From positions 1,922,001 to 1,986,000 of the forward strand of contig NZ_CP150918.1 of the NCBI RefSeq assembly GCF_039908635.1: a stretch of 64,000 bases of DNA. The letters run 5' to 3'. Below are positions 16,424 to 23,008 of the stretch, piece after piece. The notes under the pieces are model-generated. The model did no database searches, was not told where the DNA came from, and saw nothing but the letters and a program-made list of their open reading frames with translations. The DNA is from Pseudomonas purpurea. GTDB lineage: Bacteria; Pseudomonadota; Gammaproteobacteria; Pseudomonadales; Pseudomonadaceae. The translations under genes and the position numbers were made by a program. Position 1 is the stretch's first letter; each line of letters begins with the position of its first letter.

Positions 16424-16583
16424 TAAGTGTATGTGCGTAAGAGTCGCCAGGAGGCGTTGACACACAGGATGGCGTCAAAGCACCTGCTTGAGGTTTTGCC
16501 CAGGCTTCACAGCGTCGCAGGCATGCCGGCAACACTATCCATGCGCCACAAGCGCCCATCGTGGTTTTAGGAATCGAATAATA

Positions 16584-17366
16584 ATGAAAAGAACATTGCT
16601 GACCCTTTCTGCTCTGGCGATGTGCATGGCCGCAGGTGTAGCCACGGCCAAGGAATACAAAGAACTGCGGTTTGGTGTTGATCCTTCTTATGCGCCGTTC
16701 GAGTCCAAAGCGGCCGACGGTAGCCTCACCGGGTTCGACATTGATCTGGGTAATGCCATCTGCGCTGAGTTGAAGGTCACGTGCAAATGGGTCGAAAGTG
16801 ACTTCGACGGTACGATTCCTGGCTTGAAGGCCAATAAATTCGACGGCGTGATCTCCTCCATGACCGTCACCCCGGCCCGTGAGAAGGTGATCGACTTCTC
16901 CACCGAGTTGTTCTCCGGCCCGACCGCGATGGTCTACAAAAAAGGCGCCACTGTCGGCATCGATCCGGCTGCTCTTAAAGGCAAGAAGGTCGGTTATGAG
17001 CAGGGCTCCATTCAGGAAGCCTATGCCAAGTCGGTACTGGATAAGGTCGGGGTGGAAACCAAGGCTTACGCCAACCAGGACCAGGTCTATGCGGACTTGA
17101 TCTCCGGTCGTCTCGACGCTTCGATCCAGGACATGCTGCAAGCCGAACTGGGTTTTTTGAAGTCGCCGCAAGGGGCTGATTTCGAAGTCAGCAAACCGGT
17201 CGATGATCCTTTGCTGCCGGCCAAAACGGCGGTAGGTATCGCCAAGGGCAACGCCGAGCTCAAGGCCTTTATCGATAAAGGCATCAAGGCGCTTCACGAT
17301 AACGGCACCTACGATGCGATCCAGAAAAAGCACTTCGGTGATCTGAATCTCTACAGCGGCAAGTAA
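16584..17366 (+). CDS. hisJ: basic amino-acid ABC transporter periplasmic binding protein (HisJ/ArgT-like)
   Basis: The 260-residue product has a signal peptide (MKRTLLTLSALAMCMAAGVATA, cleavage near residue 22). The mature protein shows the family pattern: RFGVDPSYAPFESK, GFDIDLGNAICAEL, WVESDFDGTIPGLKANKFDGVISSMTVTPAREKVIDFS. These are the Asp, Ser, Thr and Arg contacts for the ligand alpha-amino and carboxyl groups in HisJ/LAO proteins. The frame runs from 16488, but the signal peptide fixes the start at 16584. It is the first gene of a four-gene importer. Ligand is histidine, arginine, lysine or ornithine by family; the upstream palindrome favours histidine. Confidence 0.9.
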   Translation: MKRTLLTLSALAMCMAAGVATAKEYKELRFGVDPSYAPFESKAADGSLTGFDIDLGNAICAELKVTCKWVESDFDGTIPGLKANKFDGVISSMTVTPAREKVIDFSTELFSGPTAMVYKKGATVGIDPAALKGKKVGYEQGSIQEAYAKSVLDKVGVETKAYANQDQVYADLISGRLDASIQDMLQAELGFLKSPQGADFEVSKPVDDPLLPAKTAVGIAKGNAELKAFIDKGIKALHDNGTYDAIQKKHFGDLNLYSGK

Positions 17367-17372
17367 TGCCCC

Positions 17373-17402
17373 GTGCCTGTCCTCGCGACGGGCACTTTTT
17401 TA
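17373..17402 (+). terminator. intercistronic attenuator hairpin after the binding-protein gene
   Basis: GTGCCTGTC-ctcgc-GACGGGCAC (one G-U pair) followed by TTTTTT, lying between the binding-protein and permease genes. Such hairpins commonly keep the binding protein more abundant than the membrane parts. Confidence 0.75.
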
Positions 17403-17422
17403 TCGCTATAGGTCCCTGAATT

Positions 17423-18151
17423 ATGTTCGAAGCACTGTTACAGACGCTTGGGTTCTCCGCGTTCAGCTTGCAGGGGTTTGGCCCTCTGTTGCTGGAAGGC
17501 ACCTGGATGACCGTCAAGCTATCGATACTGTCGCTGTTGTTGAGCGTTTTGCTTGGTCTGATCGGCGCCAGCGCCAAACTCTCCAGCGTCAAGCTGTTCC
17601 GGATTCCCGCCCAGCTTTACACCACGTTGATTCGCGGTGTGCCGGACCTGGTGCTGATGCTGCTGATTTTCTACAGCCTGCAAACCTGGCTGACGGGGCT
17701 CACTGTAGCGCTGGACTGGGAATACATCGAGATCAACCCATTCGGTGCCGGGATCATCACCCTGGGCTTTATCTACGGTGCTTATTTCACCGAGACCTTT
17801 CGTGGCGCGATCCTCGCGGTGCCCCGTGGGCAGATGGAAGCGGCCACCGCCTACGGCTTGAGTCGCGCCCAGCGTTTTCGTTTTGTGGTGTTCCCGCAGA
17901 TGATGCGCTTTGCCCTGCCGGGCATCGGTAACAACTGGATGGTAATTCTCAAGGCCACTGCGCTGGTGTCGATCATCGGCCTGGCCGACCTGGTCAAAGC
18001 CGCTCAGGACGCCGGCAAAAGCACCTATCAACTGTTCTATTTTCTGGTGTTGGCAGCGCTGATCTATCTGGTGATCACCAGCGCTTCAAACGTTGTGCTG
18101 CGCTGGCTTGAACGGCATTACGCAGCAGGTTCCCGGGAGGCCGTACGATGA
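17423..18151 (+). CDS. hisQ: amino-acid ABC transporter permease (HisQ-like)
   Basis: A 242-residue inner-membrane permease of the polar-amino-acid family. It has a TM near residues 25-45 (MTVKLSILSLLLSVLLGLIGA), PDLVLMLLIFY, and the ATPase-contact EAA loop (RGQMEAATAYGLSRAQRFRFVVFPQMMRFALPG, about 135-165), followed by further TMs. It pairs with the next permease, whose ATG overlaps its stop (ATGA at 18148). It forms the heterodimeric channel of the importer. Confidence 0.9.
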   Translation: MFEALLQTLGFSAFSLQGFGPLLLEGTWMTVKLSILSLLLSVLLGLIGASAKLSSVKLFRIPAQLYTTLIRGVPDLVLMLLIFYSLQTWLTGLTVALDWEYIEINPFGAGIITLGFIYGAYFTETFRGAILAVPRGQMEAATAYGLSRAQRFRFVVFPQMMRFALPGIGNNWMVILKATALVSIIGLADLVKAAQDAGKSTYQLFYFLVLAALIYLVITSASNVVLRWLERHYAAGSREAVR

Positions 18152-18858
18152 TTGAGCTCATGCAGGAATACTGGAAACCCTTCCTTTATAGCGACGGCTA
18201 TCACATCACCGGCCTGGCGATGACCTTGTGGTTACTCGCGGCGTCGATCTTCATCGGTTTTCTGGTGTCGATCCCGCTGTCGATTGCCCGGGTTTCGCCC
18301 AAGCTTTACGTGCGTTGGCCAGTGCAGTTCTACACCTACCTGTTCCGCGGCACGCCGCTGTATATCCAGCTACTGATCTGCTACACCGGGATCTACAGCC
18401 TGGCGGCCGTTCGTGCACAGCCAGTGCTTGATGCGTTCTTTCGCGATGCGATGAACTGCACCATTCTGGCCTTTGCCCTGAACACCTGCGCCTACACCAC
18501 GGAGATTTTCGCCGGGGCGATCCGCAGCATGGCCCACGGTGAAGTCGAAGCCGCCAAGGCCTACGGTCTGACGGGCTGGAAGCTTTACGCCTACGTGATC
18601 ATGCCTTCGGCCCTGCGCCGTTCGCTGCCCTACTACAGCAACGAAGTGATCCTGATGCTGCACTCGACCACCGTGGCCTTCACCGCAACCATTCCGGACA
18701 TCCTGAAAATTGCGCGTGACGCCAACTCGGCGACCTTCCTGACCTTTCAGTCGTTTGGCATCAGTGCGCTGATCTACCTGACGGTCACCTTTGCGCTGGT
18801 CGGCCTGTTTCGTATTGCCGAGCGTCGTTGGCTGGCCTTTCTCGGCCCGGCTCACTAG
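18148..18858 (+). CDS. hisM: amino-acid ABC transporter permease (HisM-like)
   Basis: The second permease (236 aa), with TMs near residues 20-45 and later. The RGTPLYIQLLICYTG motif is characteristic of the HisM subgroup, and the EAA loop is AHGEVEAAKAYGLTGWKLYAYVIMPSALRRSLP. It overlaps the upstream permease by four bases and precedes the ATPase gene by about 100 bp. Confidence 0.9.
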   Translation: MIELMQEYWKPFLYSDGYHITGLAMTLWLLAASIFIGFLVSIPLSIARVSPKLYVRWPVQFYTYLFRGTPLYIQLLICYTGIYSLAAVRAQPVLDAFFRDAMNCTILAFALNTCAYTTEIFAGAIRSMAHGEVEAAKAYGLTGWKLYAYVIMPSALRRSLPYYSNEVILMLHSTTVAFTATIPDILKIARDANSATFLTFQSFGISALIYLTVTFALVGLFRIAERRWLAFLGPAH

Positions 18859-18873
18859 GACTTAGAGCCCCAT

Positions 18874-18899
18874 GCGGCCGCTCATCAGGCCGCGGCTTT
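18874..18899 (+). terminator. possible attenuator between permease and ATPase genes
   Basis: GCGGCC-gctcatca-GGCCGC followed by ggcttttt. The stem is only 6 bp, so termination efficiency is doubtful; the downstream gene most likely still belongs to the operon. Confidence 0.35.
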
Positions 18900-18959
18900 T
18901 TCGCCGACTGCGACATTTACGCAGCGGCGATCCATTTTCCCTTTGAGGATGCTGCGCAC

Positions 18960-19724
<765 letters not shown>

Positions 19725-19792: not shown

Positions 19793-20431
19793 TTACATGG
19801 ACAGGATCAGGCGTCCTGCAAACAGAATCAGAATCACCCCCATGGTTCGTTCGAACCAATGCCCCATGCGCATGAACAGCAACCGTATCCGGGCGCTGGA
19901 AAAGAACAGCGCCACAATGACGAACCACAGCGCGTTCACAAAACACATCCAGACTCCGTACAGCGCCTGAATCTTCAGCGGTGTCGTGGTACTGATGAGG
20001 GTGGTGAATATCGCCAGGAAAAACAGCGTGGCCTTGGGGTTGGTGGCGTTGGTCAGAAACCCGGTGGTGAACGCCTTCAGCAGCGTTTGCTCGACCAGCG
20101 GTTCGTCGCTGGGCTTGTCGCCTTCCAGTGCGGTCTTGGGTTTGCTGCGCAGCAGGCTCACCCCGAGGTAAAGAATGTAGGCACCGCCCACCACTTTGGC
20201 GACGGTCAGCAGCCAAGGGGTGGTGTGCATCAGCGCGCCAACCCCGAGCAAGGTGTACAGCACGTGCACCGAAATACCGGCGCCGATTCCCAGGGCGGTA
20301 CAGATCCCGATCAAACGACCAAACCGCACACTCTGACGAATGGTCACGGCAAAGTCGGGCCCGGGGGCGACTACCGCCAGAAAGTGGATGGTCGCCAGCG
20401 CAAGGAACTCGCCTAGGTAATTGGAAAACAT
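19793..20431 (-). CDS. LysE/RhtB family amino-acid exporter
   Basis: A 212-residue inner-membrane protein with about six TM segments and the family hallmarks: VVAPGPDFAVTIRQSVRFGRLIGICTALGIGAG near the N-terminus, GGAYILYLGVSLLRS, and FLTNATNPKATLFFLAIFT in the middle. LysE/RhtB proteins export amino acids and analogues. The ATG lies directly at the end of the upstream oxygenase gene (stop at 20433), with its ribosome site (GGAG) inside that gene, so expression is coupled. Context suggests that the exported compound is the oxygenase product. Confidence 0.9.
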   Translation of the reverse strand: MFSNYLGEFLALATIHFLAVVAPGPDFAVTIRQSVRFGRLIGICTALGIGAGISVHVLYTLLGVGALMHTTPWLLTVAKVVGGAYILYLGVSLLRSKPKTALEGDKPSDEPLVEQTLLKAFTTGFLTNATNPKATLFFLAIFTTLISTTTPLKIQALYGVWMCFVNALWFVIVALFFSSARIRLLFMRMGHWFERTMGVILILFAGRLILSM

Positions 20432-20432
20432 T

Positions 20433-21203
20433 TCAACTCCAGAAGGTCAGGGGTGAGGCATTGCCGCGATAGCCGACAAAAAAAGAAAGGCTCAGGCGCG
20501 GGTCGCTCACGCCCGGTGTTACCGAGTGCATGCGTCGCGAATTGAACATGATGAAGTCACCCGGCTCAGGGCGAATCTCCAGGGTCGGAGGGCCGAGCAG
20601 CACGGGGTCGATGCCGTAACTGTCGCCGCGCATTTCGTCGAACTGGTCAGGGGAAATGTCGTCATCCCACATTTGCAGTGCGCCGCCCTCGGTGGGCATG
20701 TTCAGGTAAACATTGCAGGCGAACTGGGCCTCCAGGCTTCGCGCCTGAAAACTGTCCGGGGCGTCTTTGGCGAAGATGTCGTGATGGGCCAGGAAGCACA
20801 CGCCAGGTTTCACTACGCGGGACAATCCGACATACATCTTGCGACCGTAGAGGTTTTCCAGGTGCGCGCCCGCAGGCCATGACTCATCCAGCATGCAGCG
20901 CAGGGTGTCTACCGGTGAGGAGTAGGGCGCGCAACGGTTGCGCAGTTCGGCGATGTTGCTGGTGGCGCGTTCGAAATAGTCCTCGATCAGCAGCGGCTGG
21001 TTCTCGGCTTCATAAAACGCCATGCCGATGCGACCGATACTCGGCGCGTTGATATAGCCTTCAAAGCCCGGGGCCAGGATTTTGTCGCCAATGTCGACTG
21101 CCAGCGGCGGGGGCAGAAAGCGTTTGACGCGGATGGCGAGGACTTCTTCAGTGGCCAGTTTTTTTATGCACGTCTCATCGAGACGCTCGACATCTAGCAT
21201 CAT
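20433..21203 (-). CDS. Fe(II)/2-oxoglutarate-dependent oxygenase, possible amino-acid hydroxylase
   Basis: A 256-residue protein with the jelly-roll iron triad visible: H140-H141-D142 (in CFLAHHDIFAKD) as the HxD pair and H226 (in SRRMHSVTPG) as the distal His. R236 (DPRLSLSFFVGYRG) is ten residues later, as the 2-oxoglutarate ligand. The product region YLNMPTEGGALQMWDDD is typical of prolyl-hydroxylase-like folds. Keeping Asp142 argues for hydroxylation rather than halogenation, since halogenases replace this acid. Size and motif spacing recall the BesD lysine-halogenase/hydroxylase family, but that link is tentative. It is cotranscribed with an AlaX-like editing protein and a LysE exporter. 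Start ATG 21203 or the next ATG at 21200. Confidence 0.8.
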   Translation of the reverse strand: MMLDVERLDETCIKKLATEEVLAIRVKRFLPPPLAVDIGDKILAPGFEGYINAPSIGRIGMAFYEAENQPLLIEDYFERATSNIAELRNRCAPYSSPVDTLRCMLDESWPAGAHLENLYGRKMYVGLSRVVKPGVCFLAHHDIFAKDAPDSFQARSLEAQFACNVYLNMPTEGGALQMWDDDISPDQFDEMRGDSYGIDPVLLGPPTLEIRPEPGDFIMFNSRRMHSVTPGVSDPRLSLSFFVGYRGNASPLTFWS

Positions 21204-21292
21204 GGTTTAGGTCCGTCTATCAGGTAGTCATCGAGCCTGCGAGCGCAGGCTCTTCCCTTTCAGGCGATGGCACGCAGGCATCACCCCATTGC

Positions 21293-21919
21293 TCAGTCCA
21301 GGTCGTAGCGAACTGAAAGTGTGCCCTTCTTCTGCGAGAGGGACGCAATCTTGACTGTGCCTAGTTCCTGTAGGCGCCGTACATGGGTCCCACCGCAGCC
21401 GTAGGCGGGCAGTTCACCGAAACCGATCTCGCGCGAGCCTTCGCGTAGCGAAATCAGGCGCGGCAGATCATCGGCAATCCATTGTGTGACAGCGTTCTGG
21501 AGGGTCTCGGCGTCGAGGTCCTGAGGTGCCTCTCCCGGCTTGAAGGTCACCCGGCCTTCGCTGGGCCAATGGTGGGCCTTGATGGGCACCCAGCCGCGGG
21601 TTTCAGCGAAGTGACCGATGAGGTGGCCGGCCGAATGCATGCGGGTGTTGAATTGGCGGCGTTGTTCGTCGATCCGGATCTGGGTCATGCCGAGTCTTAC
21701 CGGGTGGTCGACGTAATGAATGATTCGGTCCGGTTCCTGGATCACTCGCAGGACCTGGCTTTCGCCGATCCAGCCGGTGTCACAGGGCTGTCCACCGCCC
21801 TGGGGGTGGAACAGTGTCGCGCGCAGCACAACGGCAAATTCGTTCTCGTGGGGCGTGCAATCCAGGACTTCCACATTAGCTTTGAGGTCATCACTATGGA
21901 AGAAGAGGCGAAGCGTCAT
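21293..21919 (-). CDS. AlaX-like alanyl-tRNA editing protein
   Basis: A 208-residue free-standing editing domain related to that of AlaRS. The N-terminal half has TLFHPQGGGQPCDTGWI, the zinc/active-site motif H95-SAG-H99 (MHSAGHLIGHF), and C175-GGT-H179 (YGCGGTHVRR) completes the metal site. Such proteins hydrolyse mischarged aminoacyl-tRNA, classically Ser-tRNA(Ala). The frame extends upstream to 21988, but MTLRLFFHSDD at 21919 is the natural start. It heads an operon with an oxygenase and an exporter. A role in clearing tRNA mischarged with the oxygenase product is an inference. Confidence 0.88.
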   Translation of the reverse strand: MTLRLFFHSDDLKANVEVLDCTPHENEFAVVLRATLFHPQGGGQPCDTGWIGESQVLRVIQEPDRIIHYVDHPVRLGMTQIRIDEQRRQFNTRMHSAGHLIGHFAETRGWVPIKAHHWPSEGRVTFKPGEAPQDLDAETLQNAVTQWIADDLPRLISLREGSREIGFGELPAYGCGGTHVRRLQELGTVKIASLSQKKGTLSVRYDLD

Positions 21920-22009
21920 ATTCCATGCCCTTATTAAAATTTCTATTTTTATTATATGGACGCTGGAATTGCGTGATAATCCGTTCAAACATCAAAGGAC
22001 TGTTGCGCT
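21920..22009. promoter_or_regulatory. divergent AT-rich promoter region between alaX-like operon and LysR gene
   Basis: Ninety bases separate the two divergent starts. The stretch is clearly AT-rich (ttattaaaatttctattttt, then attatatgg) compared with the surroundings, as expected for overlapping divergent promoters with a LysR-binding site. No exact operator can be named. Confidence 0.55.
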
Positions 22010-23008
22010 GTGAGCATAAATCTTCCGCTTCCCTTGTTGGGCGAAATGGCGATTTTCGTCAAGGTTGTCGAGACCGGCAGCTTCTCGGAGGCGGCTCGCC
22101 AACTTGGTTCTTCCCCTTCGGCGGTCAGCCGGAGTATTTCCAGGCTGGAAAAGGCGCTGGCCACCCGACTGCTGCAACGCACCACGCGTAAGTTACGCCT
22201 GAGCGACGGCGGGGAAGAGGTGTTCAAGCGTTGTCAGGAAATGGTCAGCGCTGCGAAGTCCGTCATGGAGATCAGCGGCCAGTTCACCCATGAAGCCGAA
22301 GGTCTGGTGCGGGTTAGCGTGCCCAAGGCCGTGGGGCGGTTCGTGATTCATCCCCATATGCCGGAGTTTTTGCGCCGCTACCCGAAAGTGGATGTGGAGT
22401 TGCTGCTCGAAGATCGCCAGGTCGATCTGATCGACGACCATGTCGACCTGGCGATTCGCATCACTGATCGCCCACCGGCAGGGCTGGTGGGGCGCCAGTT
22501 GCTGACCATCGACCATTTGCTGTGCGCCACGCCTCAGTACCTGGCCGAACACGGGACCCCGGCTCATCCTCACGATTTGCTCAACCACAGTTGCATTTAT
22601 CTGGGGGAGACGCCGAGCGACGCACGCTGGAAGTTCAAGAAGGGCACCAAAGCGGTAACGGTGGGTGTGCGGGGCCGGTACGCGGCCAATCACACCGGGG
22701 TACGGTTGGGGGCGGTGTTGCAGCACATCGGGATTGGCAGCTTGCCGTACTTCACCGCACGTTATGCGCTTGAACAAGGGTTGATTGTGCAAGTGCTGCC
22801 GGACTGGACCTTTCTCGCGTCCTATCACGGCGGCGCCTGGTTGCTGCATTCGCCGACGCGTTATCTGCCGCCGAAATTGCGGGTGTTTATCGACTATCTG
22901 GTGGAGTGCCTTGAGAAGGAGCCGACTCTGGGCAAGCCGGGGAAGCCAAATGCATTGGACAGGGGCGCGACGGAGTATGAGTTGCCCGAGAGTGACGGGT
23001 TGCTTTAA
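22010..23008 (+). CDS. LysR family transcriptional regulator
   Basis: The 332-residue regulator has an N-terminal winged helix (MAIFVKVVETGSFSEAARQLGSSPSAVSRSISRLEKALATRLLQRTTRKL, about residues 13-62). The co-inducer domain follows (VRVSVPKAVGRFVIHPHMPEFLRRYPKVDVELLLEDRQVDLIDDHVDLAIRI). The GTG at 22010 is the start. It is divergent from the alaX-like/oxygenase/exporter operon with only 90 bp between, the classic layout for a LysR protein controlling its neighbour; the inducer could be the substrate amino acid or the product. Confidence 0.93.
   Translation: MSINLPLPLLGEMAIFVKVVETGSFSEAARQLGSSPSAVSRSISRLEKALATRLLQRTTRKLRLSDGGEEVFKRCQEMVSAAKSVMEISGQFTHEAEGLVRVSVPKAVGRFVIHPHMPEFLRRYPKVDVELLLEDRQVDLIDDHVDLAIRITDRPPAGLVGRQLLTIDHLLCATPQYLAEHGTPAHPHDLLNHSCIYLGETPSDARWKFKKGTKAVTVGVRGRYAANHTGVRLGAVLQHIGIGSLPYFTARYALEQGLIVQVLPDWTFLASYHGGAWLLHSPTRYLPPKLRVFIDYLVECLEKEPTLGKPGKPNALDRGATEYELPESDGLL

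Follow-up and report, generated by a model that had tools for sequence, protein, structure and literature searches.

What does a tRNA-editing protein do beside an oxygenase and an amino acid exporter? The question is raised by a locus of Pseudomonas purpurea located in a stretch of 64,000 nucleotides (the window; contig NZ_CP150918.1, positions 1,922,001 to 1,986,000), which is part of a 5.93-Mb single-contig genome. Here, genes for an AlaX-type editing protein, an Fe(II)/2-oxoglutarate oxygenase and a LysE/RhtB-family exporter lie in a row next to a divergent gene for a LysR-type regulator. The explanation that we favour, with roughly even confidence, is a LysR-controlled production-plus-immunity operon, by which a hydroxylated amino acid would be made, exported and cleared from mischarged tRNA. 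The first-pass annotation, which rested on the nucleotide sequence alone, had proposed the same succession of hydroxylation, export and clearance. This proposal is supported in part, by the conserved linkage of the three genes and by the asymmetric distribution of AlaX.

Organization of the locus

The locus comprises the following features (window coordinates):

19793–20431, minus strand: LysE/RhtB-family amino acid exporter (212 amino acids; PF01810)
20433–21203, minus strand: Fe(II)/2-oxoglutarate oxygenase (256 amino acids; HxD...H, R236)
21204–21292, minus strand: spacer between AlaX and oxygenase, hairpin-folding by folding z and two-sided changes; second stem at 21233–21252
21293–21919, minus strand: AlaX-type trans-editing protein (208 amino acids; matches to AlaX-M structures; GGGQ, HSAGH and CGGTH)
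21951–21979, minus strand: promoter-like site for the unit, TTATCA-17-TATAAT (recurrent -10 element; count no better than shuffling)
22010–23008, plus strand: divergent LysR-type regulator, GTG start (PF00126 and PF03466)

The initial description of AlaX, oxygenase and LysE as one leftward set with a divergent LysR gene is borne out by frame coordinates and strands as well as by the conserved gene order. The longest AlaX frame spans 21293–21988 on the minus strand; the conserved start is the ATG at 21919, and because of this start the gap to LysR amounts to 90 bp, the distance originally given. The start of LysE had likewise been correctly placed at the oxygenase stop, the two genes being 1 bp apart, and 89 bp separate AlaX from the oxygenase. 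Among 92 loci, window included, the gap between oxygenase and LysE is 1 bp in 82, 4 bp in seven and -2 to 3 bp in three. Judging from this layout, AlaX, oxygenase and LysE constitute a putative operon.

Conservation of the unit in Pseudomonas and beyond

A search for co-occurrence of the three families beside a LysR gene, suggested at first pass, was run and revealed a conserved neighbourhood in Pseudomonas and in other genera. From a scan of named genomes, the best 80 of 140 loci were kept, all from Pseudomonas (the other 60 were not viewed), and LysR, AlaX, oxygenase and LysE occurred together in every one. Of 149 sampled Pseudomonas genomes, which may overlap with the named loci, 35 had an orthologous oxygenase (88–100% identical) and eight more had distant relatives only. 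By coordinates, AlaX adjoins the orthologous oxygenase in 35/35 of these genomes, its frame being split in one (G034), and LysE follows the oxygenase in the fetched flanks of all 35. LysR adjoins AlaX in the 80 named loci, in L115 and L119, and in 22 sampled oxygenase genomes for which wider flanks were fetched (window excluded).

The unit was also found in unrelated gammaproteobacteria. The same order occurs in G849 (identities of 71% for LysR, 51% for AlaX, 65% for the oxygenase and 73% for LysE) and G411 (62, 46, 64 and 64%, respectively), and in the congeneric genomes G789 and G1026 (AlaX 46%, oxygenase 68 and 69%, LysE 64%), where no LysR was recognized. Photobacterium plasmids pGJ3-1 and pGJ3-2 display the same order without a LysR gene being found, the oxygenase and other genes being partly frame-broken. 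In a mobilizable Acinetobacter johnsonii plasmid of 6,362 bp, AlaX, oxygenase and LysE make up three of the four annotated genes, and no LysR was found; an Achromobacter record of the same length may reflect cross-contamination. In G1002 (L159), a deletion that joins the first 42 residues of AlaX to the oxygenase from residue 139 on, approximately its second half, breaks both genes and leaves LysE intact. The arrangement thus exceeds chance, its order recurring in unrelated genera.

At E ≤ 1e-20, oxygenase matches were obtained in 4/369 members of the class sample and 4/398 of the phylum sample, P. purpurea itself being counted in both, in 2/119 of the family of G789 and in 7/30 of its genus (three full close orthologues and one remnant). 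Phage records gave no match, none was confirmed among IMG/VR contigs, and E. coli genomes contained no DNA-level match to the oxygenase gene of a relative.

AlaX without the oxygenase

An AlaX relative was present in 67 of the 149 Pseudomonas genomes, 35 with the orthologous oxygenase and 32 without; the reverse case was never encountered. Three of the 32 (G051, G061 and G099) carry a distant oxygenase elsewhere. An intact AlaX gene occupies the same site beside LysR in 26 of the 32, five of which retain LysE (L129, L139, L141, L164 and L178), AlaX having no adjoining LysE in the other 21. Two further genomes have a broken AlaX at the LysR site (L143 and L145), and in four AlaX is located elsewhere or is fragmentary (L142, L144, L146 and L185).

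AlaX without the oxygenase remains under purifying selection: in a clade of 18 oxygenase-less loci, the median ratio of non-synonymous to synonymous substitution rates (dN/dS) was 0.133 (153 pairs), as compared with 0.110 in full loci (153 pairs). In a LysR tree of 66 rows (38 full Pseudomonas loci drawn from more than 80, 26 loci without the oxygenase and two outgroup loci), the state of the oxygenase switches five times or more, and L129 and L130/L131, which lack the oxygenase, are nested inside the full-locus clade; this is a quick tree, with 82–92% support at the forks and long outgroup branches, which alone cannot separate gain from loss. AlaX is thus of use in the absence of the oxygenase, whereas the close oxygenase almost never occurs without AlaX. 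Such an asymmetry is the pattern expected for a producer gene accompanied by an immunity gene. The broken AlaX copies in oxygenase-less genomes fit this pattern; G034 does not, unless its split frame is an assembly error.

Properties of the encoded proteins

The window oxygenase matches PF13640 (38.5 bits) and has the double-stranded beta-helix, the HxD...H motif and the 2-oxoglutarate-binding Arg of Fe(II)/2-oxoglutarate enzymes. The residues singled out at first pass, H140, D142, H226 and R236, proved invariant in alignments of 35 and 55 sequences, window included. Among known enzymes, WelO5 and SadA are its closest counterparts: its modelled fold matches that of WelO5, and SadA (3w20; 17% identity) is the second-best fold match. 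PF22814, the WelO5 family, is a precomputed match for many orthologues; at E 0.001 it does not appear among the matches of the window protein. The substrate of WelO5 is an alkaloid, and a Gly at its iron site (as deduced from the title of the WelO5 G166D structure entry) presumably makes room for the halide. The window oxygenase has Asp142 in place of this Gly, and since Asp142 is invariant in all 55 rows, the replacement of Asp that marks WelO5-type halogenases is not found. The argument that a retained iron-binding Asp makes hydroxylation likelier than halogenation therefore stands as regards the residue. SadA, an N-substituted L-amino acid dioxygenase, is reported to hydroxylate its substrates at C3 (PMC3665795), and acts on N-succinyl amino acids. 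The lysine halogenase BesD was not among the sequence or fold matches listed for the oxygenase, an absence that excludes nothing, and the HilA model NF041274 gave 19.3 bits, below its cut-off of 500.

AlaX matches the AlaX-M structures 9iuw (E 4e-12) and 2e1b (E 4.9e-12). The long frame scored 23.2 bits with PF07973 (cut-off 24), and the genome search gave 25.7 bits. HSAGH and CGGTH, already recognized in the first reading of the window, are indeed present; GGGQ and CGGTH occur in 44/44 Pseudomonas sequences, as does either HSAGH or HTAGH, and the zinc and GGGQ motifs of AlaX-M are kept in 10/10 aligned oxygenase-linked AlaX proteins. Accordingly, the protein resembles AlaX-M in metal ligands, GGGQ, size and structure matches; it differs in its operon context and in scoring 70.2 bits with the NCBIfam AlaXM model (cut-off 300), which makes it AlaX-like but places it outside that equivalog. 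Editing relatives of the AlaX type are reported to recognize serine and glycine on tRNA (PMC11295145).

LysE matches PF01810 with 121.5 bits (cut-off 25.6). Its best equivalog is RhtC, at 98.6 bits and under the cut-off of 288, so that it is not an RhtC equivalog.

Relatives in other settings

Relatives of AlaX and of the oxygenase also meet in other combinations. A second oxygenase subfamily, approximately 30–36% identical, adjoins AlaX in Caballeronia pNK82, Undibacterium pUYM01 and G444. On a plasmid of the actinomycete Embleya (L201, 3631–6936), a WelO5-family oxygenase (PF22814, 39 bits), whose HFD motif keeps the iron Asp, precedes AlaX and an MFS transporter, the longest frames of this run overlapping. 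On the conjugative Salmonella plasmid pSA20021456.1 (L200), an A domain, a carrier protein, a PhyH-family 'chlorinating enzyme', AlaX, an EamA exporter and a thioesterase are encoded in a row; the AlaX relative (28%, E 3e-17) has the motifs GGGQ, HTAGH and CAGTH. From its gene content, this cluster looks like a pathway for a free chlorinated amino acid.

AlaX was found in 29 plasmid records, the surroundings of 19 of which were viewed; those of H11, H12, H16, H19, H26, H28, H31, H33 and H36 were not, and H23 was seen only through L185, a fragment with identical coordinates, and not as the plasmid record itself. A 15-kb A. johnsonii plasmid, absent from the plasmids with an oxygenase match, has an AlaX–LysE pair with a divergent LysR, and AlaX–LysE pairs without an adjoining oxygenase also occur in Priestia and in two Pseudomonas. 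The neighbours of the AlaX relative on Streptomyces cattleya pSCAT were scanned for a link to fluorothreonine, and the only family of interest was LysE, about 1.6 kb away.

A cyclodipeptide synthase relative adjoins a distant oxygenase in 12 of 15 loci compared, including three of the G789 genus (L160–L162); the family was confirmed by Pfam in L103 and L108, and the Pseudomonas loci span L103–L111. MFS genes follow in those of the loci that were scanned, and L105 adds a luciferase-like monooxygenase. The association had been noted for Pseudomonas fluorescens (PMC2922099). A gene of the aromatic amino acid lyase family in G152 (L117) has a distant relative of the oxygenase (27%) directly upstream. 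The distant oxygenases of a Dolichospermum plasmid (29%) and of Azospirillum (30%) were set aside.

Proposed function and alternative explanations

According to the production-plus-immunity reading, the oxygenase would hydroxylate an amino acid, probably at the beta carbon by analogy with SadA, which would yield an analogue resembling serine or threonine. The coupled LysE/Rht exporter would send the product out, and AlaX, as its family suggests, would strip the product wrongly loaded onto tRNA; known relatives of AlaX clear tRNA-Ala of Ser and Gly. The exported amino acid, probably an antimetabolite, would most likely harm competitors, and LysR probably senses it and turns the unit on. Loci that have AlaX, with or without LysE, and no oxygenase display the pattern that immune non-producers would leave. 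A small amino acid is the plausible target, because the oxygenase is akin to an amino acid C3 hydroxylase, the exporter is Rht-like and the editing relatives recognize Ser and Gly.

Several observations weigh against this reading. The two nearest known enzymes act on an alkaloid and on N-succinyl amino acids, respectively, so that a free amino acid substrate is not assured. The wider oxygenase family serves other chemistry too, because relatives of approximately 35% identity mostly adjoin cyclodipeptide synthase relatives (9/12 Pseudomonas loci). Evidence against a strict link between AlaX and the oxygenase comes from the 23 of 29 plasmid AlaX records that have no oxygenase match, AlaX being found beside unrelated genes in Pantoea, Cupriavidus and A. 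venetianus and beside LysR alone in Klebsiella and Chimaeribacter. Conversely, G1005, of the G789 genus, has oxygenase and LysE, and AlaX is matched there only once (34%), at a distance of about 156 kb, and in G034 (Pseudomonas) the split AlaX, possibly an assembly error, stands beside an intact oxygenase. Two small oxygenase-less AlaX pairs have higher dN/dS values, 0.363 and 0.281 (a third pair, 0.131), and no Pfam family matches the AlaX-like protein of the Salmonella cluster at E 0.001.

The main rival is detoxification of a foreign analogue, an appreciable though lesser possibility in our estimation. A toxic amino acid analogue from a plant or a competitor would be sensed by LysR, inactivated by the oxygenase, expelled by LysE and cleared from tRNA by AlaX, none being produced by the cell. 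The adjoining LysR gene and the existence of stand-alone LysR–AlaX and LysR–AlaX–LysE loci would suit such a role, and protection against canavanine by a stand-alone editing protein has been described (PMC10018355). However, an oxygenase that destroys a poison should serve alone, yet AlaX is present at all the Pseudomonas oxygenase loci (35/35 and 80/80, one copy split). The rarity of close oxygenases without AlaX, together with the occurrence of an AlaX-like protein in a production-type cluster with a carrier protein and a thioesterase, weakens this explanation.

Alternatively, and with lower probability, the product may be useful and non-toxic, such as a signal, a precursor or an osmolyte, AlaX and LysE merely barring it from proteins and from the cell. 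For the hydroxyamino acids of the Hil operon, a role as signals or attractants has likewise been proposed (PMC3684760). The purifying selection acting on AlaX in oxygenase-less strains and the AlaX–LysE pairs on plasmids are, however, a better fit to defence.

It is improbable that tRNA serves as the carrier of the chemistry, a synthetase charging it with the amino acid, the oxygenase hydroxylating the aminoacyl-tRNA, AlaX being a biosynthetic thioesterase that releases the product and LysE exporting it. This would fit the presence of AlaX at nearly all close oxygenase loci and that of cyclodipeptide synthase, another user of aminoacyl-tRNA, beside distant relatives; the many AlaX genes without an oxygenase do not fit. 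Equally doubtful is the suggestion that the oxygenase modifies a protein or a tRNA, as prolyl hydroxylases do, and that the three genes share regulation only, even though the names of some homologues read prolyl 4-hydroxylase or Tpa1-like and the fold matches include a prolyl hydroxylase from Pseudomonas putida. A chance or purely historical neighbourhood, for which no support was found except descent within Pseudomonas, is hardly credible, given that the order recurs in unrelated genera and on plasmids and that a second oxygenase subfamily adjoins AlaX in Caballeronia, Undibacterium and G444.

Comparison with known systems

The closest precedents of the putative production-plus-immunity operon are FthB/FthC and the Hil operon, neither of which is described with AlaX in the portions of the accounts examined. 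4-Fluorothreonine is made via fluorination and a transaldolase, not by a single oxygenase. In its producer S. cattleya, the stand-alone deacylase FthB clears the analogue from tRNA and the dedicated exporter FthC removes it (PMC7408626, PMC11295145). The likeness lies in the combination of a stand-alone tRNA deacylase with a dedicated amino acid exporter; FthB is described as related to ProXp-ST1, whereas the deacylase encoded here is of the AlaX type and not of the ProXp-ST1 kind. The Hil operon comprises a LysR regulator (HilR), a PF13640 oxygenase (HilA) acting on free isoleucine and, in some bacteria, an RhtA exporter, and its product is a proposed antimicrobial (PMC3684760). Hil/IDO operons thus share with the present unit a LysR gene, an oxygenase of the same broad Pfam family and, in some cases, an amino acid exporter; unlike the present unit, their published gene list lacks AlaX and has HilB, HilC and HilP as core genes. 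Neither hilB (PF10014) nor hilC (PF00106) was recognized among the seven proteins scanned, which cover the unit with its near flanks.

The components are already known, as is the principle; what seems to be new is the combination of AlaX, oxygenase and LysE. No description of it was known at first pass, and none of this combination, of its mobility or of the oxygenase-less loci was found among the titles listed in searches of the open-access literature; unpublished or subscription work may exist. If the proposed function is correct, few amino-acid antimetabolite systems would be smaller than one oxygenase with two protection genes, a set compact enough to form most of the cargo of a 6.4-kb plasmid. 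AlaX, usually regarded as a proofreader against serine and glycine, would gain a second role as an immunity protein, and the scattered LysR–AlaX loci would be explained. AlaX beside Fe/2-oxoglutarate enzymes would also offer a handle for new non-protein amino acids.

Promoter-like site, spacer hairpins and neighbouring genes

The promoter-like site upstream of AlaX is at chance level by count (one found versus 0.8 expected in shuffled sequence). Its TATAAT is kept in 14/14 full loci aligned and is variable in loci without the oxygenase.

The spacer between AlaX and the oxygenase folds more stably than coding controls, with a mean folding z of -2.72 over 82 Pseudomonas spacers versus -1.48 and +0.67 in two controls, and with z below -2 in 61/82 spacers versus 21/82 and 0/82. 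Two-sided changes were seen at four of the eight consensus pairs of the second stem (39 sequences); the counts rest on a MAFFT alignment in which the first hairpin is poorly aligned, and the second stem alone was scored. No T-run follows the hairpin on the transcribed strand, and an Rfam search over 2.8 kb including the spacer gave no match. The hairpins might tune the expression of the oxygenase relative to that of AlaX.

An ABC importer resembling ArgT/HisQMP (16488–19724, plus strand) converges on the unit; it was considered as a possible part of it and rejected, having been recognized beside the unit only in L080 of the 80 named loci. Elsewhere in the P. purpurea genome (L001 and L003), where genes were named by appearance, the ThrRS gene is seemingly split by a frame break in the assembly, and a ThrRS-like protein, seemingly without the catalytic domain, adjoins a dihydroorotase-like gene.

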